From positions 61,979,493 through 62,043,492 of the forward strand of contig NC_080575.1 in NCBI RefSeq assembly GCF_029962835.1: 64,000 nucleotides of DNA, in the 5' to 3' direction. Under the pieces are notes generated by a model. It worked only from the letters and a program-made list of their open reading frames with translations. It was not told the origin of the DNA and did no database searches. Position 1 is the first letter of the stretch. The number at the start of each line of letters is the position of its first letter. This DNA comes from Magnolia sinica. Taxonomy: Eukaryota > Streptophyta > Magnoliopsida > Magnoliales > Magnoliaceae. Shown in pieces: positions 2,491-46,896 of the stretch. The position numbers and the translations under genes are program-made.

Positions 2491-2592
2491 CAACGCTAAA
2501 GTGAGAATTTCCACTCCAAGTTTTTTCGTAACATTTTCTGTCCAATGATGGTCACACTATTTAAATTATTCCTTAATCAGTTCATGACTAGA

Positions 2593-4962: not shown

Positions 4963-6545
4963 TGTAACGTCCCGTCCAACCAGAACAATGTCCTGGGGCG
5001 TCCACGTAAGATTTGACGTATGACCGTTCGATTAAACTACTCATGGTGAGGTACCACAAATAAATTAATCTAAGATTAGCCCAATTGAGTAGACCAGACG
5101 GGTCATGACAAGACTAAGTGCGGGCCGCCAAGCCAAATGGCCGTTTACACTTAGCAATAGCCCGTGCATGTTATACCGCGACGAGGGAAGGTCAAAAAAT
5201 TATAAAATTTTAAGAAAGTATAGATCTCACTGGGCTTGTGGTCCATCATGGACCACGGACCCAATGGATACCCAAAAATAAATTATCCACGTCGTCCCAA
5301 CGGCACTTGCCAAATGCAACCCACCAAGGCCAGAGTTGAAATCTGGCACTTATAAGTGAAACTGAGATTCCAGCCTTTCCAGCTGTCGAATCTCTTCTAC
5401 ATTTACGATGAAGGTCTAATGTATTGTTTTACGCCCGTCCATAGAATCTGGGACCTGATCGTGGATGGGTGACCGTTGCTCACATATCGGAGCCGTACGA
5501 TCAAACCCCATATCCGATCGTTTCTAAATTTTGCATGACCCTACATCGGGCCATGGAGTACCTATCCTATAATTTTCATGGCCAGAGAGCTACCAGAACC
5601 ATCTCAATCAACGGAATGGACCCCACAAGCCATTTAAAGATGAGAACCGTATGATCAAGCCCCATATTCGTTTATCCGTTTGTTCCTAAACTTTGCATGA
5701 CCCCTCATCGAGCCATGAGGCACCTACATAACAGATTTGGTGGCCAAGGGGGTGTTAGGGCCACCCCAACACCAATAGGGAGTCCTAGAGGGCTATTTTG
5801 GGGAGTTATTGAAACTTGAGGCCAAAGGGCCCAAGTCTAAGAAATAAACCCTAGCTCTCTCATAACTCCCTCCTTTACCACAACCACCAAGGAGTAAAGT
5901 GAGAGCAAGAGAGTAAAGAAAGAAGGAAGAAAGAGTGAAGAAGAGCAAGGAGGACCTTAGATCAAGGTGGGGCCAAGCAAACCAAATCTTGCAACTCCCT
6001 ATCCCTTCTCCAAAGGAAAACCCTACACCACAACCACAAGAATCATTCCGTTGATCATCTAGGTAAGATCTCTCATCCCTTTTTCTTGAAACTCTTGTGT
6101 TGAGAAGGGTTTTGCATGGGATTCTAACATACAAATGTTTGCTTTAGGGATTCTGGCCGTTCGACCCCAAAAATCCACATTCCTAGGTCATCTCATAAGC
6201 CTTCAATGATCTGCAGGTGCGGACTATTATCCTTAACTGGCCTAGCACCAATTATACCATGAGTCTAATGATTTTGATTTCTTGGATGATATAATTGGAG
6301 AATCTAGAGAAAACCTAAGATTTGGGTGTTTGTTTTGGAATGTATGGAATTGTATGTTTGTCTAGTTCTCATATGATGTTGTTCATGCCTCTCACATGAT
6401 GAGGTTACAATGGATGATTACATGTTCAGGTCTTACGTGATTTTTCAAATATGGTGTTGCTTTATGACATGTATGATTCATTAGCCCTTTTGACATGTTT
6501 GTCTAGTTCTCATATGATGTTGTTCGTGCCTCTCACATGATGCAT
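4963..6545 (+). repeat. 5' LTR of element B (5' half only)
   Basis: Begins TGTAACGTCCCGTCC and aligns with the 3' LTR from 15005 to about 16520. Near its right end a block of about 50 bases (from about 6355) is repeated at 6490-6541, after which the sequence changes to a different LTR family. The second half of this LTR is absent. Confidence 0.8.
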
Positions 6546-8927
6546 TTTGGACGTGGCCCATTGAGGTGCACTTCCAGCCCATTTGGTAAGGCCCATTATG
6601 ATGTATTTTCAGCCCGTTTGATAAGGCCCATTGTGATATATTCAGGGCCCATGGGTTGTGGCCCATTGTAATGTATATGAGGGCCCACATGCTATGTATT
6701 CGAGGCCCAAGTAGTGCGGCCCACTTGTTGTATATGAGGCCCACGTGTGAGGCCCACTGAAATGCATTTACGACCCGTGGGTGAGGCCCAATATGATGTA
6801 TTCAAGACCCATGGGCGAGACCCAATGTGATGTATTTAAGACCCATGGGCGAGGATCAATGTGAGGTATTCGAGGCCGATTATCGATCGAAGCCGATTCC
6901 GATTTGTTGAGGGTGATTTCGATTGCCAAGGCCGATTGTTGAGGCCCAATGTTATGTATATGAGGCCCATGTAATAAGGTCTATTGTGATGCATTTGAGG
7001 GTCAGGCGATGGAGCCCATTATGATATATATTAGGCCCATGTGAGAGGCCCATCGTGATGTGTATTAAGCTCTCGAGTGGGGCCTATGGTGTTGTATATT
7101 TGGCCCTTGTATGAGGTCATAGGTCCATTGTCTGTTAGGCTCTATGTAGGTCATTCCTTGGGGGCAATGTTGGTTAAATGTCCACATTGTCGAGGCCGAT
7201 TGTCGATGTTAGTTATTGATACTGATTATGAGTATGTGACAGCATAGCATCATGATACATACCCATATACATCATCTGCATGTTTGTTATGAGATGTGGT
7301 TAATCATTGCATATGTCATTGAGTATGTTGTTATGAGACTCCCTGATAGGCGAAGGTTATCTCACATGAGTGCACGGTATGCACAGGATTGATGCATGAC
7401 TAGATTGTATGACTCATGCATCTTGCATTGTGTGTCCTAGCGACATCAGGGCCGTAGCCTCCACAGGCATATCGTGGATGGCCAGATGGGACACCGAAAA
7501 TGTTTGGTTCTAGCATACGGGCATAATAGATGTCCCTAGGTGAAAATCTCTAAACCTCCGAGGCCAGGAAACGCCCCAACATCGAGACCGAGTGGATACA
7601 TGAGCATCCGAGTACTGAATACCAGGAGGTCGCGTCTCCCACTGTGTCGTGGTCGGTTGGAAGGGGGTGTGGCCTTACCCGCCCGAGCGTAGGGGGCAAT
7701 ACTAGGCTAAGTTTGACCAGCTCGTGAATGGGTCCGCTATCGACGTGCCGAATAGGTATTGGCAGACTTTTGGCTAAGTGGATAGTGAGGTTTTTTATGC
7801 TCACTTGGACTGTGCGGCTAGGAGAGCTGCAGTGCCATTTGGAGTGTACTAAACCCCGGTGATGATCCCAAAGATGAACTGTACTGATATGTGAATTTAG
7901 TGAGCAGGAGTTGCATACTCATCCATGTATTCATTCATTCACTATCCACTCAGGTTGGTGGTGCGCAACTATTTTTTACGTGTGCCTTCGTAATTGTCAG
8001 GATTTCGGTTGGGGCACGCGACTAACCTGAGATCAGGAGTTTACCACATTGAGTCTGACTATCCAAATTTAGGTATGGGATTGGTTTGGATAGAAGTCCA
8101 TTGTGATGGACCTCATAGCCTCCGATACTACATACTATCATCCTGACTTCACACTCTAGTATGGTCATTCCATTCGCACCGTATATTGCATGACATTCGC
8201 GGCATACGGCATTTTAGGTTACTGCGTTTCTGCATTTATATGGTCTAGATACAGCTGACATTATTCGTGATCTCATCAAGAGTTGTATATTGCATCGCAT
8301 CCTCGGCATCTGATATTTGACTTTTTATGATTCCTTATTTACATAGTTTTTCTATATTGCTTACTCTGTTATCTTATAATTTATGATCTTGTCAGTATTT
8401 CTGCTTACTCTGATAATTCATGATCTTGTCAGTCTTTCTGCTTATTCCGATAATGTACGATTTATGGATTAGCAGTATTTCTGGTATTATATGATGATGG
8501 CATTGTATTAAATACTTGACACTTACCTTGTGCACACACTTACACCACCCTCTAAGCTTTCTATAAGCTTATGCACGATAGATGCGTGCAGATGATGATA
8601 AGTTCCACAGTGTTGAGCCTGGAGCTTGCAGCGGTTTTCTGGAGCTTGACTTTTGATTTATATATTTCCCTTTCAGTACTGTATTCAAATGTTTATATTA
8701 GTGGATATGTGATGATAATGTTGTCTTTATAATTTGGGTATACTTGTGATTATGCTTATTACGAGTTAAATGTTCATTGAAAAAAAAAAATCTTCCTTGT
8801 AGGATCCCAGGATCGGAATCTGGCTTATGAACGCTAGGAGCCGAGAATGGGGTACTACGAAGGCTGTCGGCACCAGATTCGGCGATCGGCATTCCTGTGA
8901 ATTCGATTTCCAGGTTTGGGCGTGACA
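6546..8927 (+). repeat. Foreign LTR 3' part fused to the 5' LTR of element B
   Basis: This stretch is the 3' portion of the long-LTR family seen at 19810-48993. It has GGCCCA-type repeats at 6550-7130, a few CGATT-type units (6880-6950), the conserved end region with the AAGCTT palindrome (8554-8570), and the terminal GGGCGTGACA at 8927. The 5' portion of that LTR is missing and no target duplication is visible. It looks like a recombination or template-switch product rather than a simple insertion. Confidence 0.7.
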
Positions 8928-10840: not shown

Positions 10841-10849
10841 GAAGCGGAG

Positions 10850-19809: not shown

Positions 19810-20604
19810 TGTGAGACCCGTATCCTATACCGTATCGTTTCGTAGGCTTCTGCGGTCCTTTCGGTCGAATTCTGGCGACCCGCGACGCGTAAATAGCAAT
19901 TGCGCGCACCCCTGAGTCGTATCCCGTATTCGAGAGTCGGCTCAACCCGAAACTTAAACCGTAGCGACCGTGCTGTCACCGCGGTTCTGATGCCGCGTCT
20001 CGCGTACCGGTGCGATACCCATGCCAGGAGTTATGGGCTTGAAAATAAATCGAGGAAACACCGCAGGCAACGTGTGCGCTATTTCCAGGAAGATTCCTGG
20101 TTGAGAGAATGGAATCTCTACCCATACCCTCCTCTTTCCACCAAGTCAACCAAGACCTTACCTCTCCCATGCCTTTCATGCCAACAAGGCAATGCTACCC
20201 ATACCCCATCTCATCTCATGCCCAAAAAGTCAATTTGCCCCATCCCTCACCCATACACTCCATGTCATCCATCCTTACAACTCCCATCACTCTTTCATTT
20301 TCTCTCATTCTCCTAAGCAACCCCAAGAGAAAAATCGTTCATGGCTTCCATGGAGAAGCCATGTGTGGCCCACCTTCCTATCACCCAATCCCAACCCCTA
20401 AAATCGATCTCAACCATTGAATCTTGTTCCCTTGAAGCTCTACAACGCGTGGATGGAAGAATGAAGAAGAAGATCCTAAGGTGGGTGATTTTTTTATATG
20501 ATTTTGATGATTAGAGGGCCCACATATGGTGGGACCCATCTCGATGTATGATTTGTAAGAGGAACCCATAGTGGCGGGGTCCCTCCGCTCTTCCGATCTC
20601 ATGT

Positions 20605-20628
20605 ATCTCTCTCTCTCTCTCTCTCTCT
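20605..20628 (+). repeat. (CT)n microsatellite
   Basis: Run of about twelve CT units inside the LTR of element F. The solo LTR on the minus strand has its counterpart, (GA)n, at about 40664-40688. Confidence 0.9.
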
Positions 20629-20779
20629 TTATTTCTTTACGATGGAGTGTGGTCCACCAGATCCAGCCGCCTGTGGGGCCCATCTTGCTGCATCCAGCAG
20701 CTAACTGGATGGTCCAGCATTGCTGGAACTGTCCAGTTAGCCTAAACGAAAGTGATTAAAAAAATATATATCAGCTTTA

Positions 20780-22030
20780 TCCCCAAAGCTGTGGTGGTCC
20801 ACACATGTGGACCCACCATTGATGCGTGTGAGTCATTCACGTTGCATGGGCCAGCACAATCCAACCGTCCATTTACTGGCTGCCCCACCAGCAGTTTTAT
20901 AGTTGCTGTTTGGTGCAGTAAGATCCGTGGGTCCCACCGGATATGGGCCAGATCCACACCGTCCAGCTGTTTGGACGGTGGGGCTACACTGATGTACATA
21001 TTAGTCCACCGTGCAGTGGACCCCACCTAGGGGAAAGCCGATTGGTTGATGTACGTAACATCAGCAAGTTGGTGGAAACCACCATGATGTATTTGCTGTA
21101 TATCCACTCCGTCCTTGTCCAGGACGGTGGATCCCACGGTGTTCACTTGCACCGTCCATCTGTTCTCAGATTATGTGGGGCCCACCCACATGTACTGCAC
21201 GTGTGGGCAGGTGGGACCCACCTTGATGTACGTGCCATACATTTTAGCCGTCCATCTGTTTGGGGACGGTGGGTCCCCCATGCATGTGTCTTATCAGGGC
21301 CGTCCAAATGGCCAGCAGCTAATAGTTGCATTGATGTCAGCAGCTCTGTGGGCTACCTTAATGTATGTCTTTTATACACACCGTCCTTTCATTTGAGAAG
21401 TGGGCCCACCCCACACGTGTGACACGTGTAGCAGGTGGGACCCACCTTGATGCATCTGTTCTATATCCACACTCGTCCATTTGGACGGGTGGTGTGGGCC
21501 TAGTGATGTATGTGCTCCTCAACCGTCCATCAACCTGGCTGTCCAAATGGTGGAGCCCACCATGATTTATGTATTTTCCTAGCACCGTCCAGCAGGGACT
21601 GGATGGTGGGCCCTGGCAATGATGTATGTGTTTTATCAACGTAGATCATATGTGGCTCACCATGATTTATGTACTTCAGTGGGGACCACCGTTTTCAGTG
21701 CCGTGTGGGTCGATAGTGATGCATGTGTTTCATCCTCGCCAGTCATCCATTTTGTGGCCCACCATAGGTATGTACTTCATCCAGGCTGTCCAACCGTTTG
21801 GGTGCTCAAACCAAGCCAGCAGCAGGGGGGCTGACCGTCTAGTGGTGGCCCACCCTGCTGAATATACATTGTACATTCATGTTGCCCACTCATTGCATTA
21901 TGTGGCCCACCGTGATATGTGTGTTGTGTGTACACACTGTCCACCTGATTTTCTGAACCATGGGCTGCCCCTTCAGGCCCATTTGTTGCCTATGTGGGAC
22001 CCACTTATTGAGCATTTGAGGGCGATGTGT
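20780..22030 (+). repeat. LTR array 1: ~75-bp units with CCGTCC/GGACGG hairpins
   Basis: About fifteen degenerate units of roughly 65-85 bases. Most hold CCGTCCA, a short loop and GGACGGTGG, followed by GGGCCCACC or GGACCCACC and GATGTATGT. Counterparts are at 25090-26060, 43930-44900 and, reversed, 39380-40650. Reading frames across it are chance products of the repeat. Confidence 0.75.
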
Positions 22031-22450
22031 ATGAGGCCCACCTTAATGCATTTGTGGCCCGTCCATTAAGGCCCACCTTGATGTATATTGGGCCCAAGGG
22101 ATGAGGCTCATTGCAATTTGTTTGAGGCTCATGTGATGCGGCCGATGTGTTGTTTATGAGGCCCATATTATAAGGCCCGATGTGATGCATAAGGCCCGAT
22201 GTGATGTATAAGGCCCATGTGATGTATGAGACCCATTTGTAGGGCCCACATTGTTATATATTTGAGGCCTAGGTGCAGGGCCCACCTGTTGTGAATTTAA
22301 GGCTCATGTGATATGGCCTGATGCGATGTATCTGAGGCCCATGGGCGTGGCCCATTGTCGTACATTCGGGCCCTTGTATGAAGCCCGATGCGATGTATGT
22401 GTGGCCATGACGTTGTGTATGAATCCCTTATGTGGGCCACTGATTGGGAG
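22030..22450 (+). repeat. LTR array 2: ~35-40-bp GGCCCA units
   Basis: Repeated (A/G)AGGCCCA(T/C)...GATGTAT phrases, roughly a dozen units. Counterparts lie at 26180-26630, 45020-45460, 6550-7130, 46920-47220 and, reversed, 37320-37600 and 38330-38710. Confidence 0.75.
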
Positions 22451-22629
22451 CAATGTTGGTTAAATGGCCACATTGATGGGCAATGATGGTTTAACGCCCA
22501 CATTGTGACATTCCCTTAGGCCTTGTTAGGCCCATTCTCGCCATCCTCTAGTGGGTTAATCCAAATGATTGGGCCCCGTTGATATTACTTGATACATCGG
22601 TCGTTCATCTAGGGACCCCACCTTGCATG

Positions 22630-23980
22630 GAGACCGATTCTGATTATCGAGGCGATTATTGATCGAGGCCAATTATCGTGGCCGATTGTCGATTCTGATT
22701 ATTGTGACCGATTTGCCGATTCTGATTATTGATCGATCCCGATTGCTGTGGCTGAATGCCGATTCTGATTGACGTGACCGATTTACCGATTCTGATCATC
22801 GATCTATCCCGATTGTTGTAACCAATTTGCCGATTGGATTATCGATCGATCTGATTGTCGTGACCAATTACCGATTCTGATTATTAATCGATCCTGATTG
22901 TCGTGACCGATTTACCGATTCTGATTATCGATCTATCCCGATTGTCGTGACTGATTTACCGATTCTGATTATCGATCTATCCCGATTGTTGTGACCGATT
23001 TGCCGATTTGATTATCGATCGATCTGATTGTCATGACCAATTACCGATTCTGATTATTAATCGATCCTGATTGTCGTGATCGATTTACCGATTCTGATCA
23101 TCGATCTATCCCGATTGTTGTGACCGATTTGCCGATTTGATTATCGATCAATCTGATTGTCATGACCAATTACCGATTCTGATTATTAATCGATTCTGAT
23201 TGTCGTGACCGATTTACTGATTCTGACCATCGATCTATCCCAATTGTTGTGACCGATTTGCCGATTTGATTATCGATCGATCTGATTGTCGTGACCGATT
23301 TACCGATTCTGATTATCGATCGATTCCGATTGTCGTGACCGATTACCGACTCCGATTGTCGTGACCATTTTACCGATTCTGATTATCAATTGATTCGATT
23401 GTCGTGACCGATTTGCCAATTCTGATTATCGATTAATCCCGATTATCGTGACTAATTGCCGATTTCGATTGATGTGACCGATTTGTTGATTCTGATTATC
23501 GATCGATTCCAATTGTCGTGACCGATTACCGACTCCGATTGTCGTGACCATTTTGCCGATTCTGATTATCGATTGATCCGATTGTCGTGATCGATTTACC
23601 GATTCTGATTTTCGATCGATTCCAATTGTCGTGACCGATTGCCGATTGCGATTGACGTGACCGATTTGCTGATTCTGATTATCGATCGATTCCGATTGAT
23701 GTAACCGATTTGCCGATTCAGATTATCGATTGATTACGATTGTCGTGACCAATTACCGACTCTGATTACCTTGACCGAATTGCCGATTCTGATTATCGAT
23801 CGATTCGATTGTCATGACTGATTTGCCGATTCTGATTAGCGATCAGGGATGAATATCGTGACCGATTTACCGATTCTGATTATCGATTGATCCCGATTGA
23901 CGAAGCCGAGTATCGAAGCTGATTCTAATTGTCGAGGTCGATTGTATAGGCCGACCCCGATTGTTTAGACCGATTCTGAG
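22630..23980 (+). repeat. LTR array 3: ~44-bp CGATT minisatellite
   Basis: About thirty degenerate units on the theme CGATTCTGATTATCGATCGA, then CCGATTGTCGTGACCGATTT. Unit length is near 44 bases with 20-30-base partial units. The array is cut at 23986 by the nested element. A reversed counterpart lies at 37620-38240. It is absent from the LTRs of the nested element at 23987-46891. Confidence 0.85.
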
Positions 23981-23986
23981 TGTCGA

Positions 23987-26900
23987 TGTAAGCCCCGTAT
24001 CCTAGACCGTACCGTTTCATAGGCTTCCGCGATCTTTCCGGTCGAATTCCGGCAACCTTCGACCCTTAATAGGTATTTGCGCGCGACCCTGATTCTCATG
24101 CCGTCAGCCCGAATCGACTCAACTCAGGACTTGTACCTTAGCGACCGCGTCGTCCCCGCGGTTCCGATGCCGCGATTCGCGCGCCGAGGCGATACCCTGG
24201 TTGGGAGATGTGGGCCAGTGTTCGGTGCGAGAAAAACGCCGTGCGTGCGAATTCTGAGAGAATCTCTACAAGGTGTCACATCAATCAATTAATCCCATCA
24301 ATCCCATCATGTAAAGTACACATCACCTTTCACCCTTTCCCAAGCAAGCCCCAAAGTCAAAAAGCTCTTACACAAGCCTTACCTCTCTTACAACTTTTGC
24401 CACAAAAGTCAAAAAGAAGCTCTTACACCCATCCCTCTCTCTCCCATCCATCACTCCATCACCCATCACTCTCTCTCTCTCTCCCTTACAAGTCTCTCTC
24501 TCATTTTCAAACTTTCCCAAGCAAAAAAAAATCCATACGTATGAGCCTCTCCCCATATCTCCCAAGCTACATGTGTGGCCCACCTTTCCATCCCTAGATC
24601 TCCCATCTTAGCCATCCATTTCTCATCTTCCTCCATCAAAGAGAAGCACAAGGAGCTAAGGAAGCCAAGGGAGTAAAAACATCAAGTGGTGGGTGCTTCG
24701 ATAGGGTAGTTTTGATGTTTTTAAGATGGGCCAAGTGAGGCCAACCGATCAATGGTTTGGATCTCACTTTGGACCCTAAGATGTAGCCAATGGCCCACTT
24801 GGATCATCATGATCATTCCATGATGGGGCCATTCTTCATGGACCCCATCATGATGTTTATTTTCTTGCATATTTAGGGTCATCTAGACCGTCTAATTTAG
24901 TGGAGAAGGGATCTCCACCGTTGGATTTTAATTTAATGGGTCCACATGTAATGGGACCCACTTGATGTATGATTTAGTGCAAGGAAGGGCCCATAGTGCC
25001 GAGGTCCCTCCATCACGCGGGTCTCACTCTCTATCTCTCTCCCTTTTATTTTATTTTTTATTTTTTTGGTGATGATAATGAGGTTGTGTGGCCCACTTGA
25101 ATGGACCCCACTATGAAGTATATATTTTGTCTAAGTCGCCTAAGTGGGACCCACTTCATGTGTGTAGTACCCACACTACCCATCATTGGTGGCCCACCTG
25201 AGCAGGCCCACTTGCATGGCCAAACCGTCCAGCGTCCCTGGACGCTGGACGTTTGTTGGAAATCACAAATATCATCTTGTTTCAAAGGATATGGGTGGCC
25301 CACTCATATGGGTCCCACCTTGATGTATGTATTAAATCCATGCCGTCCATTCCTTTCCCAAGCTTGTTTTAGGCGTTGAGCCGAAAGATGGGACCAATCA
25401 TACTTTCAGGCGGGCCATGGCATGTCAAACAACAGGTTTACCATTGAATTATTCCCTGTTGTTTCTATACGCCGAAACAGGCCCAATATTGGGCTTGTTT
25501 TGCTTGTCTGGAGTCATGGAGGGCCGTTGGACGGAGTAGATTGTTTAGATGTGGACTCCACCTGCAAAAACCATAGAAAAACTGAAATAAAAAAAATACA
25601 AACACAGCAGCGTCGGCTGCTGTGTCAGAAAGGCAGCAGGCGCTGCCTGCGCACCAGCGTCCGGGCGGACGGGCAGTCGGGCAGCCACCCACAGCTGTAG
25701 CCATGGGCCCCACCTTGATGTTTATCTGTCATCTAATCCGTTCATAGGGTGGGCCACTCCCTGACTTGGGCCCACTCCAAAAATCAGCCTGATCCAAGAC
25801 TCAGGTGGCCCACACCGTAGGAAACAGTGGGATTGAACCTCTACCTTTGAAACCCTTTTTGGGTCCACAGAAGTTTTGGATCAGGGTGAAATTTGTTTTG
25901 ACCCTTCATCTAGGCCCACGTGGCCTTATCAACGGGTTGGATGGCATATCAACATTATGGTGGGCCCCACATGGAGCCCACAAGGATGTATGTGTTTCAT
26001 TTCCACCGTCCAGGCCACTGTGTGTTTGTATTAACCCCACCGTCCTGGACGGTGGGTGTGATCTGTGCATGCATGTGTGGGTGTGTACGTGTGTGTATAT
26101 ATATATAAAATATTATATTATATATAATATTGTATGTATTATATATATATATTATATATTATATTATATATAATCTACTGGTGATGGGAGGCCCATCTCA
26201 ATTTACTTGTGGCCCGTGGTCGAGGCCCACTTTGATATGTATTTAAGGCCCATCTCAGCTTACTTCTGGCCCATGGTTGAGGCCCACTTTGATTTATATG
26301 TAAGGCCCATGGGTCGAGGCCCATTTGATGTATTAGGGGCCCATGGGTTAAGGCCCATTAAAATGTATTAGGGCCTATGGGTTGAGGCCCATTTGATGCA
26401 CGTATGGGGCCCAATTGGCGATGCCCATTTGATACATATAAGGCCCATGTGAGTAGGCCCATTTGATGCACCCTAAGGCCCACGGGTTATAGCCCATTGC
26501 AATGTACATAAGGCCCATCGGTGCGGCCCATTGATGTGGCCCACTTAATGAATATAAGGCCCATGTGATTTGACCCATTTGATGTATTTAAGGCTCAATG
26601 GGATGTACTTAAGGTCCATTGCAATGTGTGATCCCAACATGGGTTATGTAATGATGTTTACGTCGGGCTATGCCTTGGGAGCAATGGTGGTTTGACGTCC
26701 ACATTGCAAGTATAGTGTTGGTTAAATGTCCGCATTATGACTCACCCTAGGGCTCATTATAGGCCCGTACGTGTTATGTGTAGGCCGTCTAGGCCCATCT
26801 TCGTTATGAATATCATCCATCCCATATAACATGCTTAGTTCCATGATTCATGATCATATGCATCATACGTATGCTTGATATGAGAAATGACTGATCATAG

Positions 26901-28054
26901 CATATGCCTTTGGGCAAATGATTTAGGGGCTCCCGTACAGGGGGTGTTTCCCTACATGAGCGCACGATACGCGCAGGATTGCTGCATGACTGGATAGTGT
27001 GATTCATGCATTCGCATTGTGTGATATGGTTACTGTACGCCCTAGCGACATCAGGGCCGTAGCCTCCACAGACGTATCATGGTTGGCATGATTGGATACC
27101 GAAAATACTGTTATACATGGGGTGCGATAGATATCCCTTGGTGAAAGTCCCTAAACCCTTATGGTACCAAGAGGTTGCTCCAACGTCTAGACCGAGTGGG
27201 TGCATGAGCGCCGAGTACCGATTACCAGATGGTTGCGCTTTCCACTGTGTCGTGGTCGGTTGGAAGGGGGTGCGGCCTTACCCGCCCGAGAGTAGGGGGC
27301 AATGCTAGGCTGAGTCTGACCAGCTAGAGGAATGGATCCGCTATTGACGAGCCGAGCCCAATTTTGGCAGGCGGATAGTGAGGTCTTTTTCACTCACCTT
27401 ATTGTGCGCAATGGGGCAGCAATCTGGCTTGGAGTGTACTAGACCCCGGTGATATTCCAGATTTTGAGCTGTATCGATATGTGGACTTAGATGAGGATTT
27501 GTATGCTTGAGTTGCATTTCGCATTGCATGGCCTTGGTATGGTCGACATCATCCTTTGCACCGTATGGCCTTGGTACGGTTAATGGTATTCTTGGCATTC
27601 ATCAGCATGTTCCGCATTACTCTGATACTACATAACTGTATTACCACCTTGAGCATATACTTTCACCACCCTCTAAGCTTTCTATAAGCTTATGCACGAC
27701 TGTTGCGTGCAGGTGACGTTGGATCGCAGCAGCGCTGAGGCTTCGACGCGTGGCAGATCATTTTGGAGCTTTTGGTCTATCATCATTGTATTTCCCTTTA
27801 TGCTCATTGTACTTGTAAAGTTTTTTATCATAGTGGAAATGTGATGGAGTTTTTGGTTGTTGTTTGTGGGTTATGCCTTTGGTTATGCTTATTACGAATC
27901 AAACTGATGTTGAAAATCCTCCCTGTAGCATCCCAGGATCGGAACCTAGCGAATGGGCATTGGGAGCCGAGAATGGGGTTCTACGGAGGCTGTCGGCGCC
28001 AGATTCGGCGATCGAGAATTTTATGAGCCCGGTTTTCGAGTTTGGGGTGTGACA
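23987..28054 (+). repeat. 5' LTR of element A
   Basis: 4068 bases, TGTAAGCCCCG to GGGGTGTGACA. Contains array 1 (25090-26060), an AT-rich stretch (26095-26175), array 2 (26180-26630), and a conserved end region with the AAGCTT palindrome (27675-27691). It lacks array 3. Short open frames in it recur in the 3' LTR because of sequence identity, not because they are genes. Confidence 0.9.
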
Positions 28055-28059
28055 GAAGT

Positions 28060-28071
28060 TGGTATCAGAGC
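28060..28071 (+). promoter_or_regulatory. Primer-binding site of element A (tRNA-iMet)
   Basis: TGGTATCAGAGC, a perfect complement to the 3' end of plant initiator methionyl-tRNA, five bases after the LTR. Usual for Tekay/Del chromoviruses. Confidence 0.92.
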
Positions 28072-28228
28072 ATAACTCGGGAATAACCAAGAACAACATT
28101 ACATATCTGTTATGAATGATTTAAGTCCTTAGTTCGGATAGCTAGCGATCTTTTATTACCGACCCTTAACGAGTGTGCCTTTGAGAGTTTTCAAAGTTGA
28201 TAGGCACCTTCGCTCTTTCCTGTAGAAC

Positions 28229-29353
28229 ATGTCGCCGCGTAGGAGAGTGACTCGATCGACTCCGACTCCACCACCTGCGACTCCCGCACTACCACCTACG
28301 ATTCCTGCTCCACCACCAGAGATTCCTACTGCCCAGCCTGAGGATGTCGCTCCTCTACCAGGGATTCATGCTGCCCAGCCTATGGATACAGCTCCTCCAC
28401 TAGAGACCGGTGCGAAGCCGACCGTATCCGTGAGTGCTTCCCAGTTACAGCAGATGCTGCAGGCTGTGACGGCCGCACTTCAGGGGCAGGGCAGACACCC
28501 AGTCATTTCACCAGCGCAGGCAGAGCAGGAGCGTGCGAGTGCCCTCCTTCGAGAGTTCCAACGACTCGATCCCCCGCATTTTTAGGGTGAGCCAAACCAG
28601 ACCGTGGCTGAGAAATGACCCGCCGATGTAGAGAAGATATTTGAGACGATGGGATGCTCGACTGAGCGACGAGTCCGATTAGCCGTATTTCTTCTCCATG
28701 GTGAGGCTGAGCACTGATGGGCGTCAGTCTCCCGAGCAGCAAGCGCTGATTTTGTATGGACTTGGGAGGATTTTGTGGATCGGTTTGACCGACAGTATTT
28801 TCCTGATCACATCCGACGACAGCGAGCGTTGGAGTTTGAGGCCTTGGTGCAGGGCGATATGATAATGGCTCAATATGCCGCTCGTTTTGTAGCACTGTCC
28901 AGATTTGCACCATTCTTGGTAGATGATGAGGAGCGGAGAGCCCGCCGATTTGAGGGTGGCTTGCGTTACGGTCTTCGAGGCCGTGCTATTGGGCATGAGC
29001 TCCCGACCTTCGAGGAAGTGGTGCGGAAGGCCCAGATTTTTTAGGCTGAGTGGGATGGTTCTCAGTCTGATCGCGGTCAGAGGAGAGACCGGAAGAAGCA
29101 GGCTCCTTCCAGTGATACCCAGCAGGTTCGACCTCAGCAGAGGCGCACAGGTCGCCCAGCCTTCCGAGCGCCAGCAGCACCTTCAGCACCACCTCCGAGG
29201 CAGTTCATCGGCACTTGTTTTAGGTGCGGTGTGGCAGGACACCATATGTGGGAGTGTCCTCGCCCCCAGCAGCAGCAGCAGAGAGGTCCACAGCAGCCTC
29301 CACCACCACAGCAGCAGCAAAGACCCCCACAGCAGCAGCGACAACAGCCCCCA
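28229..29353 (+). pseudogene. gag of element A with CCHC zinc knuckle
   Basis: Starts MSPRRRVTRSTP with a Pro/Ala-rich N-terminal segment (28229-28500). The gag domain core is at about 28740-29040 (FDRQYFPDHIRRQRALEFEAL, YAARFVALSRFAPFLVDDEERRARRFEGGLR). A CCHC knuckle at 29215-29257 (CFRCGVAGHHMWEC) is followed by a Gln/Pro-rich tail from CAG repeats. The solo LTR at 29354 interrupts the tail. Typical Tekay/Del gag. Fossil. Confidence 0.88.
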
Positions 29354-32300
29354 TGTAACACCCCGTACTTTCCAGTACTCGAGTGTTACCATTTAATGTA
29401 ATTTAATATAAAAACATAAATATATATATATATATATAACCTAAATATATATACTATGAAATGTTATTTATATATTTTATAAATATTTAAAGTTTCATAT
29501 TAAAATGATATGTAACTATAATCCATGTTATGTGCATATACTTACAACCTCATTAATATAAATTACGAACTATAGAATCTGTAATACATAAAAATAAAAT
29601 ATACTAGAAAATCTAATGACTTATATAAAATTTAAAAACCTAACACATATATGACCATACAAATAATAATATATATTTATTAATCTCTGCATACTGATAT
29701 TCATTAACAATTTGTATTAATATAAATTATATATGACAAAATATATAAAGGAAAATAATAATAATAATAATAATAATAAACATTAAAACTTATTCCAGTA
29801 ATAGCATTTAATATTCTAAATTCATAGCGTAGGTGGTCCCAGTTGTCTGAATAGATCCCTTAGCCCTTTTAACCGTTGTCGTTCAAATTCGATATGATCC
29901 GACCGTTGGAATTGCAGGAATCCACCAATACGACCCAAATCAAGTTGTGGGCCCCACCTAGGCTTTGGATCCACCTCATCTTTAGTTTGGTGACCTAATA
30001 TGACCTCTAGAATCATTTAGACGGTGTGGATTTCTCAAAAGCACCACGGTGGACCCCACACCTGCGTCGCATGTGCACCACAGGGGATGCACCCGCTGTG
30101 CACCAGGCTGGTTAGACCGGTCAGCACGGGCTGACCCGTGCTTCTCCAAAAAAAGGAGAGTTTTTCTCTCTCCCTCTCGTTGCGCCAGCTGACGGACGTC
30201 GTCCGTGTGATTTGCAAATGGCCCACCACCATGGATCCCACAAAGAATCCAAACCGTCCATCATGTGCGAACCTTAGCCCTGACCAAAACCCTAAAACCT
30301 CCACCTGCTAGGTGCACCCACATGCACTCGTGAGCTGGCGCAACAAGGACCCGAAAACACAACGTTTCCAAAAGTGGAAACTGTTTCCACTCCACATCAG
30401 CGATCCGCGTGAGGGGCGTCTAGCACGATCTCGGACGTCCATCCAAAGCAATCTCAGCCGTTCATTTTAGCTGAGCGGTTTAGGGCTCCCTTAGCAAACA
30501 AAACCACAAGCAGTTTTGGATTCGCCCACCGTATTTGGAGACGGTTTCAGCCAGGACGATCTGGACCATTTGTTGTCAATCCTACGGTTCTAACACGTTA
30601 GGGTAAAGGAATAAAAGGGCGTGGATCGAGCAACAGGAGCTCATTCCCCATTCTTGCAGCCGCCTGAGAGAAAACCCATCCGAAAGCTTCTTCCTTCCAA
30701 CCCATCTATGAAACTCCATTGGAGCTTCAACTTGAAGCATCCCCTAGCTTTATCCCACCAAATCAGACCATCCAATGCATTCGGATCTGAGAAAAATGCC
30801 CCGCATCGAGATCTGCCATTAATGGCCGGTCTTCTTCCTCGGCGAGCCACGGTTCCTGTTTTGCTGCGGGCCATGTTCTGATGCAGCTGGGGTGAAGGGA
30901 ATGAATAGGATAAGGAGGAAAGAGAAGAAAGAAACGGAAAGAAAAGAAATGGAGGAAGAAATAGAAGGAAAGAGAGTAGAGAGAGGGTTGACGTGGTGCA
31001 GCTGCACCTGCACCACGTTGCTGACTCAAACCGAGCCGAGGTTGGACTGAGTTGGGCTGGGTTTGGTTCATCTAGTCTCACTGCTGGACGTCCCAGCAGG
31101 GAGAAGAAAAAGAGAGAAACAGTGGGAGAGAGCGAGGGAGAGGGCAAGTGCAACTGTTGCACTCACTGCCGAGTCAAGGGGACCCTACTCGCCGGCATCT
31201 TCTGCCTTCATTGAGTCGAGCTGACCCAGCTGAGTTGCATGTCTGGTAGGATTCAGGCCTGCCAAGCATCCCTTCCATCAATTGAAATATGGAGTGTGTG
31301 TGCTTGTGTGCGGCATTGGCTCAACCCAACCGAGTCGCTTGTGCGACTGCTCGACTCACTGGGTTGAGCTAGGCGATTGGAGTTGGGGTTAGCTCGAGCT
31401 AGCTGCGAGTTTGGTCTGTCCCAGACCCTGTGAAAAACCAGGGAGAGTATAGGGGCATGTAATAGAAAGAGAGAAAGCAAGATCGGTTGGTGGGTTGCAT
31501 GGCAAGCGAGTTGACTTGACTCACCTATGTTGGGTCTCGCCAGCCTCCTTGCTGGAGTTTTCCAGCTAAAGCAAGAGAGGAAAAGAAGAAGAAAGAAATA
31601 GAAAAGAGAGATTCTAGAGAGAGAGAGAAGAGAGAAAATGAATGAGAAGAAGATGGGCTGTCCGGCCCAAACTGAGTCAACTCATCGAGTCTGAGCGAGT
31701 CGAGCTGGGTTGGTCTGTCCAGACCCATTGCTGGACATCCTAGCAAGGGATAGAGGAATGGAGGAATGAAAGAGAAAAGAAAGAAAAGAAAGAAGAGGGA
31801 GAAGGTGAGATTGAGAGAGTTGAGCTGAGTCAACTCAAATGCCAAGTTGTGTTGATTCAAGTCAAATGAATTACAGGTGCGTTTTCCCTAAAAACCTCGT
31901 ATTGGAATTTTAATTAGAACATTGGTAAGTTATTTATGCTATAACTAGCTATTATAATCAAAGGCTGTAATTATCAAATCTTAGTATTTATTACCATCAT
32001 TAATGTGGCTATAATTATTGCGATTATTAAATATGGCTAACTATTTGTTAATTCTGCTAGTGTTAGTTACAACATTTATCATGCTATACCTTTTATCAGT
32101 GTAGGTTATTAACAATAAGATTAACATTGATAGCATTAATAGGAAATTATTATCTACTTTTACTTCATTCTAAAATTAATATGAATTAATTATATGAATT
32201 TGATTTCTAAACTCTAAGCCAAAGCCTAAAGTTAGGTTAGTGGATGAAATCCTGAGTCTAAGTAACCTAAACCATAAGTTATGATCCAAATCGTACAAAT

Positions 32301-34304
32301 TAATAAGTTGTTCTCTAAGATATCATTATATGTCCCTTTTACCGTTGTTATTACTATCATGAGTCACTATTAGTATCACCACTCGTGTGTTGTTAGGTAA
32401 TTTAATATAATATTAGCCGTTGTAATATTCTTAAAATTTACAACAATTTATTTATTAATTTTACCCATTCATTACTCCCATTAACAATATCATTAATGGC
32501 CACACGAAATAGAGTTTAAATTCCATAATCTAAACTTAGAACTAAATCCTAAGATGAAGCCCTAAACTTTACATTAAAATCCTAAAATCTAAGTATGGGA
32601 CTAGACTCTAGAATAAAACTCTAAACATAAGTAACCTAAACCCTAGGTCATATTAACCTTGACCTTAAGTACTTTGTAGAAACCTGATCTCACGTACAAC
32701 TTCACAATCCATGGTAGGATTCAATCCTGAGGGTGCACGCGCTTCGTAGCAACGCCAATTGGCGATTCGATGCATGAGGTGATGATTCTTCCCCTTGAGC
32801 TTTCCATCTTCTCATTAGCTTAAGTTATAGTTTTTATTAAAAATTATAATTGATATCTCTCTCTCTTATAATCACATGTATTAGCTGGTGGAAATTGAAT
32901 TGCTATATTACCTGTTTAATGTTCATCCTGTATATTTGTTCATGCTTGTGGATTATTTGTGTATTGCTTATGGACTTTGAACTGGTACATTAGTGGGAAA
33001 CCCCCACCTATAATTGTACACCCATACTTGGGATGTAACCCGACTAGTTGTGATTAAAATGGACCTTCGACTTAGTGGTTATTGAGTAGTGGTCTAAATG
33101 AATCATTGATGTGGGCCTACCATCTAGGGTTATTGTGTCCAAACGGTTTTCAAGGATGGTCTTTTATCGCATAGTTTTGACACTCGCCCTATGAGGCCTA
33201 TTTTTATAATTACCCTATGTGGCTTGTTTGATATCGCCCTATGTGGCTTTGTTCTGATATTTTCCCTATATGGGTTCGAGGTTTTATACTGTGTAACCAT
33301 GCGATGGTAAGCCCCATATACTGTAATATGATTGGCCACTAGTCGACGGGTTTCCATTAAACATCCTAAGATGGTAGCCTCATGAGCCGGGGATGGTGGT
33401 AATGGGACACTATGCCCGAGCTGTCGGCCTACGCTGGGCCATGTGCTCCCCGTAGTGACCTTTGAGCTTATCTAAATTGGCTGGTTGTAAATGGACTAAT
33501 AATGACTTGGCTAATCATGCATGCATAGCATATTACGACGGCTTGGATCATTATGCCCATACGATTACGCTACGAGTTGCGCTAATGACCAGCCGATCGA
33601 TTTTTGATGATGACTTGGATCACTCATGCCCATACGATTACGCTGCGTGTTGCGCTGATGACCACTCACATCTTTGGGTGACGACCCCATTGCCTGTCTG
33701 GATATTTTTCCTGGGGCACCGACCGTCCGGATAATTTACCCGGGTCGATGATTGCATTCATGCATCCATGCACCTAATAAGACTGCATTTACTCTGTTTT
33801 GGTTGTCTGGATGTTTTATACTATTTCTTACCTAATGCGGCAGTGTGTAATCTTGAGGGGAATTCACACTGAGTTGGCCACTCATCCATCAAATATACAA
33901 CCGTACAGGTAGTACAGGTGGCTTTAGTGATATGCATGTTCAGACTTGATGAGGAGCAGGGTACGATTGCCAGGGATGCATGGCTGTAATTACCTGGAGG
34001 AGCTGCGTGATCTTGCGGCTTATATTCATATGCTTTCCGCTATTCTTCATGTATTAAATGCTTGTAAATTTTGTACTTGTTAAATTCAGAGACATTGGTT
34101 TGTATAAGTCATTATGGGCAGCTTCTCGTAAATTTGAATGATAATGGAATTTTCCTTTATGACGATTTGTCCACACTACGCTTAGTTGCTTACTCTGATG
34201 AAGGAAAAAAAAATGTACACACGAATTTGACCATCCTTTAAAGCTAACACTCGGGTTTCTGGGACACGGGTCACATACTCGGGTCCTGAAAACCGGGGCG
34301 TACA
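29354..34304 (+). mobile_element. Solo LTR of a Tekay-like family (element D), nested in element A
   Basis: 4951 bases from TGTAACACCCCG to GGGGCGTACA with perfect CCCCA duplications at 29349-29353 and 34305-34309. No primer site, purine tract or coding region, so it is read as a solo LTR. It shares a segment (33380-33450) with the 3' LTR of element B (about 16985-17060). Content: AT-rich 29390-29820 and 31870-32690, with purine-rich and GAGTCGAGC-rich tracts at 30900-31860. Orientation is inferred from that shared segment. Confidence 0.85.
29755..29779 (+). repeat. (AAT)n microsatellite
   Basis: About eight AAT units within the AT-rich part of the solo LTR of element D. Confidence 0.85.
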
Positions 34305-34309
34305 CCCCA

Positions 34310-35220
34310 CCACTGAGGCCACCTCAGCAGCAGCATCAGCACCAGCCTCCGAGACCGCAGCAGCAGAGGCAGCAGTTTCGACCACCTCAGCGATAGCAGC
34401 AGCAACAGCACGCTCAAAGGGGACAGGCATCTCCTCAGCCAGCTCAGGCTCGATTCTATGCGGCCCAGCAGGATCCTCAGTCATCTGGAGGAGTCGTTGA
34501 GGGTATACTTCCAGTATCTGCATGCATTGCACGTGTGTTGTTTGATTTTGGTGCATCTCATTCTTTTGTGGCCGAGAGTTTTTGCCGATCGACTGGTTTC
34601 CCATTGGAGTCTGCTCGTGAGGGGTTGACAGTATTGACTCCCTTGGGGAAGACTGCAGTGTTGAGCCAATTTTGCTCGTCCTTCCCCGTTCTAGTTGGGG
34701 ATATCTTTTTGCCTGTCGATCTGTTTGCTTTGCCGATGTCCGAGTTCGACGTCATCCTGGGCATGGATTGGCTTGCCGAGTACCACGCCATATTGGATTG
34801 CTCCGCGAGGACAATCACGTTTTGTATACCTGGCTTGCCGCAGTTCCAGTTCATTGCTGAGCCCAGAGGAGAGCCGTTGTCTTGTTTGATGTCTTGTGCC
34901 ATAGAGGAGCCCATAGCGGTGAGCATCGACCAGTTGCCTGTGGTTTGCGATTTTCCCGATGTGTTTCAGGAGATTCTGGGATTACCGCCTCGTCGACTCA
35001 CCGAGTTTCAGATTGATGTCGTGCCCAGTACTGCGCCTATTTCAAAGGCCCCATATCGTATGGCACCATTGGAGTTGCAGGAACTGCAGAAGCAGTTGGA
35101 CGAGTTGCGTGAGTTGGGCTTTATCTGTCCGAGCAGTTCGCCATGGGAAGCATTGGTACTCTTCGTGAAGAAGAAGGATGGCGATTCAGGAGTGGCGGAT
35201 GCTCGAGGATATAGCAGAGT
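34310..35220 (+). pseudogene. Gag tail, protease and start of RT of element A
   Basis: After the inserted LTR the Gln/Pro-rich linker resumes. From 34535 a 231-residue open stretch opens with LFDFGASHSFVAESFC (the D-x-GAS active-site form usual in plant Ty3 proteases) and continues through FDVILGMDWLAEYHAILDC. It ends with the start of RT (ELRELGFICPSSSPWEALVL, VKKKDG). Fossil. Confidence 0.85.
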
Positions 35221-35495
35221 ACGACTTTGAGTTTAGCTTGCAGTCTTCTATTATGCAGTTATCGAGCCTGTCGATTCAACCCTCTCTTGTCGCAAGGGTG
35301 ATCGAGGCTCAATAGGCAGACGAGTCGTTACAGGATTACCGAGCAGAGGCAGCATCTGAGAGTCAGACAGATTGACAGATTGGTTCTGATGGTGGACTTT
35401 GCTTCAGAGGCCGATTATGTGTCCCGGATATTCCTGAGTTACATAGAGATCTTATGACCGAGGCACATCAATCGCGGTTTTCTATCCATCCTGGC
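35221..35495 (+). pseudogene. Residual pol sequence of element A before the minus-strand insertion
   Basis: Low similarity to the region ahead of the integrase zinc-binding end in related elements, for example a CPDIPELHRDLM-like phrase near 35420-35455. It ends with the CTGGC duplication (35491-35495). Fossil. Confidence 0.55.
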
Positions 35496-37619
35496 TGTCA
35501 CACCCCAAACACAAAAATCAGATTCACAGGAATCCCGATCATCGAATTTGGTGCCGACAGCCTCCGTAGTACCCCATTCTCGGCTCCTAGCGTTCATACA
35601 CCAGATTCCGATCCTGGGATCTTACAAGGAGGATTTTTTTTTTCCAACATACGTTTAACTCGTAATAAGCATAATCACAAGTATACCGAAATTACAAAGA
35701 CAACATCATCATCACATATCCACTAATATAAACATTTGAATACAATATTGAAAAGGAAATACATAAATCGAAAGTTAAGCTCAAGAAGACCGCTGCACGC
35801 TCCAAGCTCAACACTGCTGCAACTTATCATCATCTGCACGCATCTATCGTGCATAAGCTTATAGAAAGCTTAGAGGGTGGTGTAAGTGTGTGTACAAGGT
35901 AAGTGCCAAGTATTCAACATAATGACATCATCATACAATACCAGAAATACCGGTAATCCATAAATCATACAATATCGGAATAAACAGAAATATTGATAAG
36001 ATCATGAATTATCAAAGTAAGCAGAAATATTGATAAGATCATAAATCATATGATAACAGAGTAAGCGGAAATACGGACAAGTCTATGAGTCAATCAATGT
36101 TAGAATACACAATATAGAACAACTATGCAATGAAGAATCATAGATAGCCAAATATCAAATGCAGAGGATGCAATACAATATACATTCCTGATGAGTAACA
36201 CAAATAGCGTCAGCCGTACGTAGACCATATAAATGCAAAGATACAATAACCCAAAATGTCATATGCCACTAATGTCATGCAATATGCGGTGCGAATAGAA
36301 TGACCATACTGGAGTGTGAAGTCGGGATGATAGTACGTAGTATCGCGGGCTATGGGGTCCATCACAAGGGACTTCTATCCAAACCAGTCCCATACCTAAA
36401 TTTGGATAGTCAGACTCAATGTGGTAAACTCCTGATCTCAGGTTAGTCGCGCGCCCCAACCGAAATACTAGCCATTGCGAGAGCACACGTAACAAATAGT
36501 TGCGCGCCACCAACCCGAGTGGATAGTGAATGAATCAATGTATGAATGAGTATGCAACTCTTGCTCACTAAATCCACATATCAGTACAGTTCTTCTCTGG
36601 GATCATCACCGGGGTTTAGTACACTCCAAATGACATTGTCTCTCTCCTAGCAGCACAGTCCAAGTGAGCGTAAGAAACCTCACTATCCGCCTGGCCAATA
36701 GTCTGCCAATACCTATCCGGCACGTCGATAGCGGACCCATTCACGAGCTAGTCAAACTCAGCCTAGTAATGCCCCCTACCCTCGGGCGGGTAAGGCCACA
36801 CCCCCTCCCAACCGACCACGACACAATGGGAGACGCGGCCTCCTGGTATTCAGCACTCAGGCGCTCATGTATCCACTCGGTCTCGACGTTGAGGCGTCTC
36901 CTGGCCTCGGAGGTTTAGGGATTTTCACTCAAGAACATCTATGGCGCCCGTATGCTAGAACTAAACATTTCCGGTGTCCCATCTGACCATCCACGATATG
37001 CCTGTGGAGGCTAAAGCCCCGATGTCGCTAGGGCACACAATGCAAGATGCATGAGTCATACAATCCAGTCATGCATTAATCCTGTGCATACTGCACTCAT
37101 ATGAGATAACCTCCACCTATCAAGAAGTCTCATAACAACATGCTCAATGACATATGCAATGATCAACCACATCTCACAACAAACATGCAGATGGTGCGTA
37201 TGGGCATGTATCATGATGCTATGCTGTCACATACTCATAATCGGTATCAATAACCGGCATTGACAATCGATCTCGACAATGTGGACATTTAACCAGTGTT
37301 GCCCTCAAGGAATGACCCACATAAAGCCTAATATATAGTAGACTCATGGCCTCATACAAGGACCTAATATATAACACCATGGGCCTTACTCAAGGGACAC
37401 ATATACATAACAGGTGAGCCCTGCTCATGGGCTTCAAATATATAACATGTGGACCTTACACATGGGTCACGAATACATCAAATGCGTCATACATCATGGG
37501 CCTAATACATACCACAATGGCCTTACCCATGGGCCACGAATACACCACAATGGGCCTTGCCCATGGGTCATAAATACATCACAGTAGGCCTCGAATACGG
37601 TTCGTATATACATCATATA

Positions 37620-38240
37620 GGTCTCAACAATCGGAGTCGACACTCGAAATCGACCTCAACAATCGGAATCGATCTATACAATCGACCTCGACAATCGGAA
37701 TCGGCTTCGATACTCGGCCTCGACAATCGGGATCGATCGATAATCAAAATCGGTAAATCGGTCACAGCAATCGAATCGATCGGTAATCAGAATCGGCAAA
37801 TCGGTCATGACAATCGAGATCAATCGATAATCAGAGTCGGCAAATCGGTCACGACAATCAAATCGATCGATAATCAGCATCGACAATCGGTCACGACAAT
37901 CAAATCGATCGATAATCAGCATCGGTAAATTAGTCACGACAATCAGAATCGGCAATCGATCACGATAATAGGCCTTGATCGATAATCGACAATCGGCCAT
38001 GACAAATCAGAATCAGTAATCGACAAATCAGACTCGGTAATCGGCCATGATAATCGGCCTTAATCGATAATCAACAATCGGCCACGACAAATCAGAATCG
38101 GTAATCGGCCTCAATCGATAATCGGCAATCGGCCACGACAATCGGGGTTGATCAATAGTCAGAGTCGGCAAATCGGTCACGTCAATCAAAATCAGCAATC
38201 GGCCTCAAAGATCGAAATTGGCAATCGACATCGATGAGAA
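37620..38240 (-). repeat. LTR array 3 (CGATT minisatellite), reversed copy
   Basis: Units on the plus strand read TCGATCGATAATCAGAATCG and CGGTCACGACAATCGA, the reverse of the array at 22630-23980. About fourteen units, roughly half the length of that array. Confidence 0.8.
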
Positions 38241-38900
38241 TGGCCTAGCAAGGCCTAAGGGAAGGTCATAATAAGGACATCTAACCGTCATTGCCCATCA
38301 ATGTGGACATCTAACCAACATTGCTCCCAAGGAATGGCCCACATAGAGCCAAACATAAAGTGGGCCCATAGCCACACACGCAAGGGCCAACATATATCAT
38401 AAGGGGCCGCCCACACGGGCTTTATATACTTCACATCAGGCCTCACCCATGGGCCCAATATACATCGCAACAGGCATCAGACACGGGCCTAATATACATC
38501 ACAAAGGGCCATATCACATGGGCCATATAAGTATCAAGTGGGCCGCATTACATGGGCCTCCTATGCAACACGTCCGGCCTCATGGACGGGCTTCAAATTC
38601 ATCGAGGAGGGCCTCATGGACAAGCCATAAATACATCAAGGTGGGCCTCATAGGCAGCCACAAATATATCAAGGTGGGCCTCAAATACATCTCATTGACA
38701 AGGCCGTGAAGGTGCATGCAATGCACTCACATGTACGGCTAAACTCCTATGCAAGCATGCATTCAAATAATATTACCAGTGAGTGCTTACTCGACCTCAA
38801 GCCTTACACGTGCCTTTCTACCATAGTTTAGGTCATGTGCAGATCAGGTGTCCATCCATATACGTCACATATACATTCAACATACATTCAACGTAACCTA

Positions 38901-42829: not shown

Positions 42830-42830
42830 C

Positions 42831-46891: not shown

Positions 46892-46896
46892 GTCAA

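Follow-up and report, generated by a model that had tools for sequence, protein, structure and literature searches.

Oversized, array-bearing long terminal repeats in an abundant, probably Ty3/gypsy-type retrotransposon family with members of about 0.39-kb interior

Tandem arrays of plant retrotransposons have been reported in non-coding regions, e.g. before the 3' long terminal repeat, LTR (PMC6317226, PMC7004042, PMC11963269; for these as for all PMC-numbered sources below, our statements hold for the part of each text at hand). Here we describe, in a 64-kb window of plant-type DNA with nested LTR retrotransposons (G000:C3:61979493-62043492, the whole stretch analysed), a family which bears such arrays in the LTR itself. 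Several known systems come close to it. In Ogre/Retand elements, too, the non-coding DNA carries tandem arrays particular to each family (PMC7004042, PMC11963269), but those of Retand lie between pol and the 3' LTR, the LTRs measuring 315-1194 bp (PMC11963269), whereas here they lie within the LTR, so that each element carries two sets. The largest non-chromoviruses have LTRs of up to about 5 kb and non-coding tandem arrays (Neumann et al. 2019, PMC6317226); LTR detection in that work had a maximum of 6000 bp, and any detection with this maximum would miss longer LTRs. In CRM1TR and CRM4TR, for which unequal exchange and conversion are discussed, tandem repeats are tied to the sequence of the LTR or untranslated region (UTR), but there the LTR/UTR part is itself the satellite monomer, whereas here the arrays stay within LTRs (PMC3648361). 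In Sirevirus LTRs, repeated palindromes form clusters ahead of the TATA box; Sireviruses are however Ty1/copia elements with a short CGG-CCG motif, and the text at hand does not mention GGCCCA or CGATT minisatellites (PMC2829016). Elements of the TRIM (Cassandra) and LARD (Sukkula) classes are non-coding and presumed to be mobilised in trans; the TRIM interior is nearly absent, and Cassandra is known to occur in tandem copies. The LTRs of TRIMs are short, however, and a LARD has a core domain, whereas here giant LTRs surround a tiny interior (PMC7215508). Finally the Tekay/Del-type chromoviruses resemble the coding element of the window, A, by its gypsy-type protease and integrase, its long LTRs and its 5-bp target site duplications (TSDs), a likeness of features and not of a reverse transcriptase, ribonuclease H and integrase phylogeny; unlike in Tekay/Del, LTRs reach 6.3 kb here and bear two minisatellite families. 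The extract of PMC8282616 holds nothing on arrays in LTRs, and neither this order of arrays nor LTRs of about 6 kb around a 0.4-kb interior was found in the titles and abstract openings consulted, few subscription papers among them.

We consider it probable that the window contains oversized LTRs of an abundant Ty3/gypsy-type family whose arrays, placed in U3, change by units, and that part of this family has kept an interior of about 0.39 kb only. With each transposition, arrays borne by an LTR are passed on to the two ends of the new copy, and they vary by units among very many copies; this makes it possible to test whether they change in the course of reverse transcription, once inserted, or as solo LTRs arise. 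The LTRs of the window were inventoried by self-BLAST and by reading of termini and TSDs; those needed first, with their modules, are the following.

19810..23986, plus strand: left part of the solo LTR B, up to the insertion point of element A (TG start, TSD, self-BLAST)
20635..22029, plus strand: hairpin-module zone of B (irregular repeats, excess stems, strong fold)
22030..22400, plus strand: GGCCCA array I of B, units of 33-35 bp (nhmmer units, period peaks)
22401..22632, plus strand: spacer 1 of B (sequence comparison, unit profile)
22633..23986, plus strand: CGATT array of B, units of 44/42/43/26 bp in a 129-bp higher-order repeat, profile matches to 23886, A inserted near the array end (TRF, unit profile)
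46892..48993, plus strand: right part of B (self-BLAST, TSD)
46907..47186, plus strand: GGCCCA array II of B (unit profile)
47159..47304, plus strand: spacer 2 of B, related to spacer 1 (sequence comparison, unit profile)
47305..48993, plus strand: 3' block of B, with a TATA-like block at about 48620-48643 (self-BLAST, aligned LTR ends)
23987..28054, plus strand: 5' LTR of A, with a single GGCCCA array at 26188-26640 and without CGATT array (self-BLAST, termini, unit profile)
28055..42830, plus strand: interior of A, broken by M (start like a primer-binding site, PBS; protease, integrase)
42831..46891, plus strand: 3' LTR of A, GGCCCA array at about 45026-45459 (self-BLAST, termini, unit profile)
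35496..41478, minus strand: M, solo LTR of 5983 bp with an exact TSD, GCCAG, inside A (termini, TSD)
38393..38684, minus strand: GGCCCA array I of M (unit profile)
37640..38240, minus strand: CGATT array of M (unit profile, self-similarity)
37348..37626, minus strand: GGCCCA array II of M (unit profile)
6541..8927, plus strand: F, 3' part of a further LTR (reading by eye, unit profile)

B, at 19810..48993, is a solo LTR of 6.28 kb bounded on either side by the exact 5-bp TSD CCATC, and A, whose LTRs measure 4.07 kb and whose TSD has one mismatch (GTCGA/GTCAA), is nested in it. B (plus strand) and M (minus strand) agree in the order of their modules, as the original prediction had it. A 5' block leads into the hairpin zone; GGCCCA array I, spacer 1, the CGATT array and GGCCCA array II come next, and spacer 2 and a 3' block (1.7 kb in long LTRs) complete the LTR. 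The repeats which it described are real and lie within LTRs, but three successive families of tandem repeats are not supported: the GGCCCA array stands twice in the long LTRs, the second having been missed, and the hairpin zone is not tandem. The GGCCCA unit measures 33-35 bp rather than about 37 bp; the CGATT unit of about 44 bp is present, but mixed (44/42/43 bp with 26 bp). That most of the LTR body is tandem repeat was overstated: strict arrays make up 32% (B), 20% (M) and 11% (A) of the LTR, and together with the hairpin zone 54%, 53% and 39%. The LTRs of A, said to have only the first two arrays and to be 2 kb shorter, indeed hold one GGCCCA array, one spacer and no CGATT array, and B exceeds them by 2.21 kb; by the segment boundaries, CGATT and GGCCCA array II account for about 1.62 kb of this difference, but about 0.48 kb is a non-array indel of the 3' block. 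In F, GGCCCA units (6551-6868 and 6940-7118) flank a CGATT remnant at 6870-6940, which the eye follows over about 70 bp and the profile recognises as one unit, and the stretches around the two spacers of M are related (37277-37442 vs 38299-38462, 72% by self-BLAST). We propose that a GGCCCA-spacer unit may have been duplicated, the CGATT stretch between the copies being then amplified into a minisatellite-like array. M has in addition, between its hairpin modules and GGCCCA array I, another tandem array (38895-39040, minus strand) with a TGCATG-rich 50-bp unit in 2.9 copies at 95%.

The string CTATAAGCTTATGCAC is identical in all six aligned LTR ends (6/6), about 365 bp from the LTR end. The extra length of the long LTRs lies between the conserved 5' end and the conserved, TATA-bearing 3' block, and therefore most likely in U3; if CTATAAGCTTATGCAC marks the promoter, all arrays are in U3.

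The internal repetition of these LTRs, which the original prediction proposed to check by its periodicity, is non-random. We counted 14-mers matching with at most 3 mismatches and compared the count to the maximum of 50 dinucleotide shuffles (in brackets): 6435 (443) and 1553 (142) for the CGATT arrays of B and M, 370 (31) and 556 (31) for the GGCCCA arrays of B (array I) and A, 393 (73), 186 (52) and 150 (58) for the hairpin zones of B, M and A. All are far beyond the shuffles, while of two non-LTR controls one was just over (53 vs 44) and the other under (85 vs 89). Array-free LTR blocks gave 122 vs 59 (B 3') and 37 vs 34 (B 5'), an excess weaker than in the arrays, and 36 vs 46, i.e. under the maximum, for A 3'. 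The hairpin zone, claimed as an array of units of about 75 bp, is repetitive and folds strongly (z -7.4 for 20900-21640 of B and -8.4 for a part of M, 20 shuffles each), with more stems than the shuffle maximum in B (8 vs 5), M (10 vs 5) and A (7 vs 4); but TRF reported no tandem array in it and the distance peaks in B are irregular (98, 248, 137 and 223 bp), which rules out the 75-bp period.

Every one of the 61 GGCCCA and 43 CGATT units recognised by profile in the 64 kb lies within an LTR, stray GGCCCA units being found once in the hairpin zone of B and twice, reversed, in the hairpin zones of A. In the genome (1.84 Gb in 127 contigs), each query gave a number of first-look candidates, of which only the best 40 were scored. 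For CGATT there were 4,397 such candidates; the arrays scored span up to about 2 kb, within scoring windows that could cut longer ones. Eight further CGATT arrays, chosen going down the candidate list from outside the loci fetched and read just past their downstream end, are all followed by GGCCCA array II, spacer 2 and the 3' block (8/8). Neither long free arrays, as a satellite would form, nor arrays mostly outside LTRs, the case held to refute the original prediction, were seen in this sample.

To describe the variation of LTR length, 32 loci were fetched: 24 around matches to the hairpin zone of B and, from the 40 places scored for its 3' block (28,414 first-look candidates), 8 taken at even ranks. 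From these, 25 complete LTRs were delimited, L008 giving its second LTR only, and L014, L015, L017, L019, L022, L024 and L031 no complete LTR; with B, M and the two LTRs of A (A5, A3), the statistics cover 29 complete LTRs. Length ranges from 3791 to 6318 bp, CGATT span from 0 to 1746 bp and summed GGCCCA from 231 to 943 bp. Length goes with CGATT span (Spearman 0.86), and the shares of the length variance are 0.49 for CGATT, 0.10 for GGCCCA and 0.41 for the rest; when only the 21 LTRs whose CGATT reaches 100 bp or more are counted, they become 0.33, 0.08 and 0.58. The lengths are continuous over the 29 LTRs, so that discrete length classes explained by arrays, as had been expected, are ruled out. 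At least two GGCCCA arrays were found in 20 of these 21 LTRs, and the order GGCCCA-CGATT-GGCCCA in 14 of the 15 CGATT-bearing LTRs where order was read (exception L006); L026-L030 and L032, with module counts only, were left out of this tally.

Some close relatives differ by steps of unit size. The only indels of at least 20 bp between L007 and L009 (K 0.028) measure 128 and 44 bp, both in CGATT, and the only one between L001 and L002 (K 0.057) is of 71 bp, again in CGATT; L003 and L004 (K 0.035) have none in CGATT and a single one of 21 bp elsewhere. Between the sister LTRs B and L025 the CGATT span goes from 1254 to 705 bp, and unit spacing reveals higher-order repeats that differ between lineages: 44-42-43 (B group), 44-26 (L027) and 44-26-57 (L032). 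In a midpoint-rooted tree of 30 3' blocks, the CGATT-less A5, A3, L008b, L012 and L013 make up one clade (support 1.0); within the other clade, L016 and the pair L018/L021 again have no sizeable CGATT array. CGATT-less blocks were trimmed shorter before alignment (1300 vs 1750 bases), a difference that could draw them together in the tree; L016 and L021, trimmed in the same way, nevertheless did not group with A. The span correlation, the unit-sized steps in some near-identical relatives and the lability in the tree support the proposal that LTR length changes as arrays are gained, lost or undergo slippage. Unequal exchange, slippage or template switching might add or remove complete monomers or higher-order units. 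As a separate observation, the GGCCCA array is less diverged than the outer blocks between the LTRs of A (23987-28054 vs 42831-46891; non-CpG differences of 1.2% vs 3.3-3.4%).

The family has TG...CA LTRs with 5-bp TSDs, and a PBS after the 5' LTR and a polypurine tract before the 3' LTR in the interiors of A and of N, an element at the start of the window.

2492-1, minus strand: N, two LTR parts around a 393-bp interior (self-BLAST, termini)
1172..2492, minus strand: end of the 5' LTR of N (self-BLAST)
779..1171, minus strand: interior of N, 393 bp, from PBS to polypurine tract (alignment to other interiors, genome search)
1..778, minus strand: start of the 3' LTR of N, truncated by the window edge (termini)

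The interior of N aligns end to end with the 411-bp interior of L023 (74.6%) and over about 290 of the 425 bp of the L025 interior; the first ~55 and the last ~40 bp of these small interiors match the ends of A's interior. Used as a query, it gave 3,190 first-look candidates, the best 40 of which, the window copy among them, all cover it (389-394 bp, at 86-89% when the window copy is set aside). With 150 bp of LTR added on each side, the query was continuous across both junctions at all of the 40 best-scoring places, again counting the window, and 24 of the 40 interiors are, by a hand count, also among these junction-spanning matches. The LTRs of the two measured small-interior elements are of 5450 bp (L023) and 5697 bp (L025). 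These sequences point to a non-autonomous form of the family, LTR, interior of about 393 bp, LTR, apparently at high copy number. At the best 40 places its interior is nearly absent like that of a TRIM, but its LTRs are not short, and an interior of 0.39-0.43 kb is not the large non-coding core of a LARD; this places the layout, LTRs of about 6 kb around 0.39 kb, between both classes. Such an element, almost all LTR, is in our opinion the most interesting part of the locus, and lies outside the segment on which the original prediction was made.

In this part of the family the interior would have shrunk to about 0.39 kb, PBS and polypurine tract being kept; its elements would have to use proteins of coding relatives, and A has both interior ends in common with them. 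Among the 25 fetched complete LTRs, 17 have an exact 5-bp TSD at their nominal ends and an 18th, L016, has one with a one-base shift, while in L013 four of five bases agree. L012 and L023, preceded by a polypurine tract, and L025, preceded by an interior, are therefore 3' LTRs; L011, L018 and L020 were assigned neither as solo nor as paired LTRs. Most sampled copies are solo LTRs, possibly because two LTRs of about 6 kb lying so close recombine readily. Other arrangements were also noted: at C4:52972451-52979215 (minus strand) two interiors lie 6116 bp apart, which suggests an LTR-interior-LTR-interior-LTR tandem with one LTR shared, and L033, on the 5' side of the L023 element, contains hairpin, GGCCCA and CGATT modules a second time, as an incomplete set.

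Several points speak against the account given so far. The sample is not random: it is biased to relatives of B and made of best-scoring places only. Arrays explain only about 59% of the length variance over the 29 LTRs, and about 41% among the 21 with CGATT, other indels making the remainder. LTR pairs of one element, moreover, show little array change: none of unit size in A (K 0.036), where the indels are limited to 12 and 13 bp and lie in the hairpin zone; one 34-bp GGCCCA unit in the P2 pair (L034/L025, K 0.052), with CGATT of 699 vs 705 bp; 1259 vs 1258 bp, by search coordinates, in a presumed C2 pair whose pairing is deduced from a spacing of 6606 bp; and 69 bp in GGCCCA with smaller CGATT indels in the P1 pair (L033/L023, K 0.15, part of the LTR compared). 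CGATT differences of at least 70 bp, by alignment or span, occur in 4 of 6 close independent pairs vs 0 of 2 LTR pairs, which is not significant (Fisher p 0.43). Arrays might therefore change at any of three stages: reverse transcription, post-insertion or solo-LTR formation. One of two non-LTR zones (29500-32500) also exceeded its shuffles in stems (13 vs 9), the TATA-like block is a sequence match and not a mapped start site, and flanks were seen for 24 of the 40 interiors, not for the other 16.

Among the alternatives, the one that survives best makes the arrays selfish or neutral, slippage-prone passengers of U3 which could later seed free satellites; we find the case for it about evenly balanced. 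Unit-sized indels and lineage-specific higher-order repeats are what it would expect, as is the loss of arrays at more than one place in the tree, and in Lathyrus satellites were indeed seeded by retrotransposon-borne arrays (Vondrak et al., PMC7004042). On the other hand, no CGATT span above about 2 kb appeared in the 40 scored places, with the reserve made above on scoring windows, and the GGCCCA array never falls below 231 bp in the 29 complete LTRs.

It is rather doubtful, in our view, that the arrays are outside repeats inserted separately into the LTRs, the hairpin zone being captured ends of a foldback element. This explanation comes from a dispersed element of the window:

2650..3069, minus strand: dispersed foldback element of 420 bp, like a miniature inverted-repeat transposable element (MITE), with ends that resemble hairpin modules (profile, genome search)

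Other copies are at 52604-53031, 54983-55232 and 61040-61213, with inverted ends of about 155-166 bp. The family is abundant and also found outside LTRs (13,078 first-look candidates, a loose number; 40 scored at 76-81%, window copy aside). With a profile of its ends trained on non-LTR copies, the hairpin zones of B, M and A each beat 100 of 100 shuffles, and the zone of A contains a long foldback match (25704-25966, 69%). But one of the two non-LTR control zones, 29500-32500, beat 100/100 shuffles as well, and GGCCCA array I of B nearly did so; besides, the direction might be the reverse, LTR modules having founded the foldback family, and capture is no explanation for the CGATT and GGCCCA arrays, found here only in LTRs. 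The zone 29500-32500, in A's interior, with its profile match and its excess of stems, is perhaps itself a foldback copy. GGCCCA units compared to hairpin modules gave a summed score above 60/60 shuffles in three zones, the best single match being reached by 2-4 of 60, which hints weakly that they are relatives of these modules.

That the arrays are enhancer modules is an unlikely reading. The GGCCCA/TGGGCC repeats would, as site II motifs, bind TCP-type factors of the host; array number would then tune LTR transcription, and selection would keep the arrays. The GGCC core is among the best-conserved unit columns (0.92-1.0 in the first motif copy), but other columns (T, A) reach 0.94-0.95, and a low mutation rate of the GGCC context may be enough to explain this. 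The arrays lie upstream of the TATA-like block common to the 6/6 LTR ends, a position comparable to that of the palindromic clusters of Sireviruses (PMC2829016); however their length varies widely, and a search for papers that bring TGGGCC, site II, TCP and binding sites together with transposable elements yielded none. Any regulatory role of the arrays can only be conjectured.

A wider proposal, to which we give low credence, is that of a giant-LTR miniature, a successful non-autonomous lineage: about 96% of the element would be two LTRs of 5.5-6 kb, an evolving U3 minisatellite cassette with host-factor sites would tune its transcription by array number, and the short interior would favour rapid collapse to solo LTRs spreading the arrays over the genome as regulatory DNA. 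As for the possibility that the 0.39-kb-interior copies are repeated internal deletions or products of tandem recombination instead of a transposing lineage, the two C4 interiors and the extra module set on the 5' side of P1 lend it something, but it is very improbable, since independent deletions would not share end points, whereas the best 40 interiors are all full length at 389-394 bp and those of N and L023 align end to end.

The assignment of our preferred family to the Ty3/gypsy type is suggested by the coding content of A, i.e. a protease (34397-35230) and an integrase (41622-42620). Pfam detected RVP_2, then rve (E 8e-4, below cut-off) and Tf2-1 SH3; in the pieces searched it found neither reverse transcriptase nor ribonuclease H, and in the piece concerned no chromodomain. 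By eye, we take a stop-interrupted tail to be chromodomain-like, and the PBS string TGGTATCAGAGC is presumably of the iMet type, as in Tekay/Del-type chromoviruses. In A (28055-42830) the greater part of the reverse transcriptase region seems to be missing, and the protease is separated from frames of gag-like appearance, judged by eye, by about 5 kb that have no explanation so far.

No known RNA family was found in the window at gathering threshold. A second gypsy-type element occupies 4962-16514, with repeats (4962-6492 and 15004-16514) that are 90% identical; the left one abuts the LTR of F abruptly at about 6541. Host-gene fragments of receptor-kinase type are present at 53093-54490 and 56705-57460, with B_lectin, S-locus and PAN domains, and GUB_WAK_bind below cut-off.

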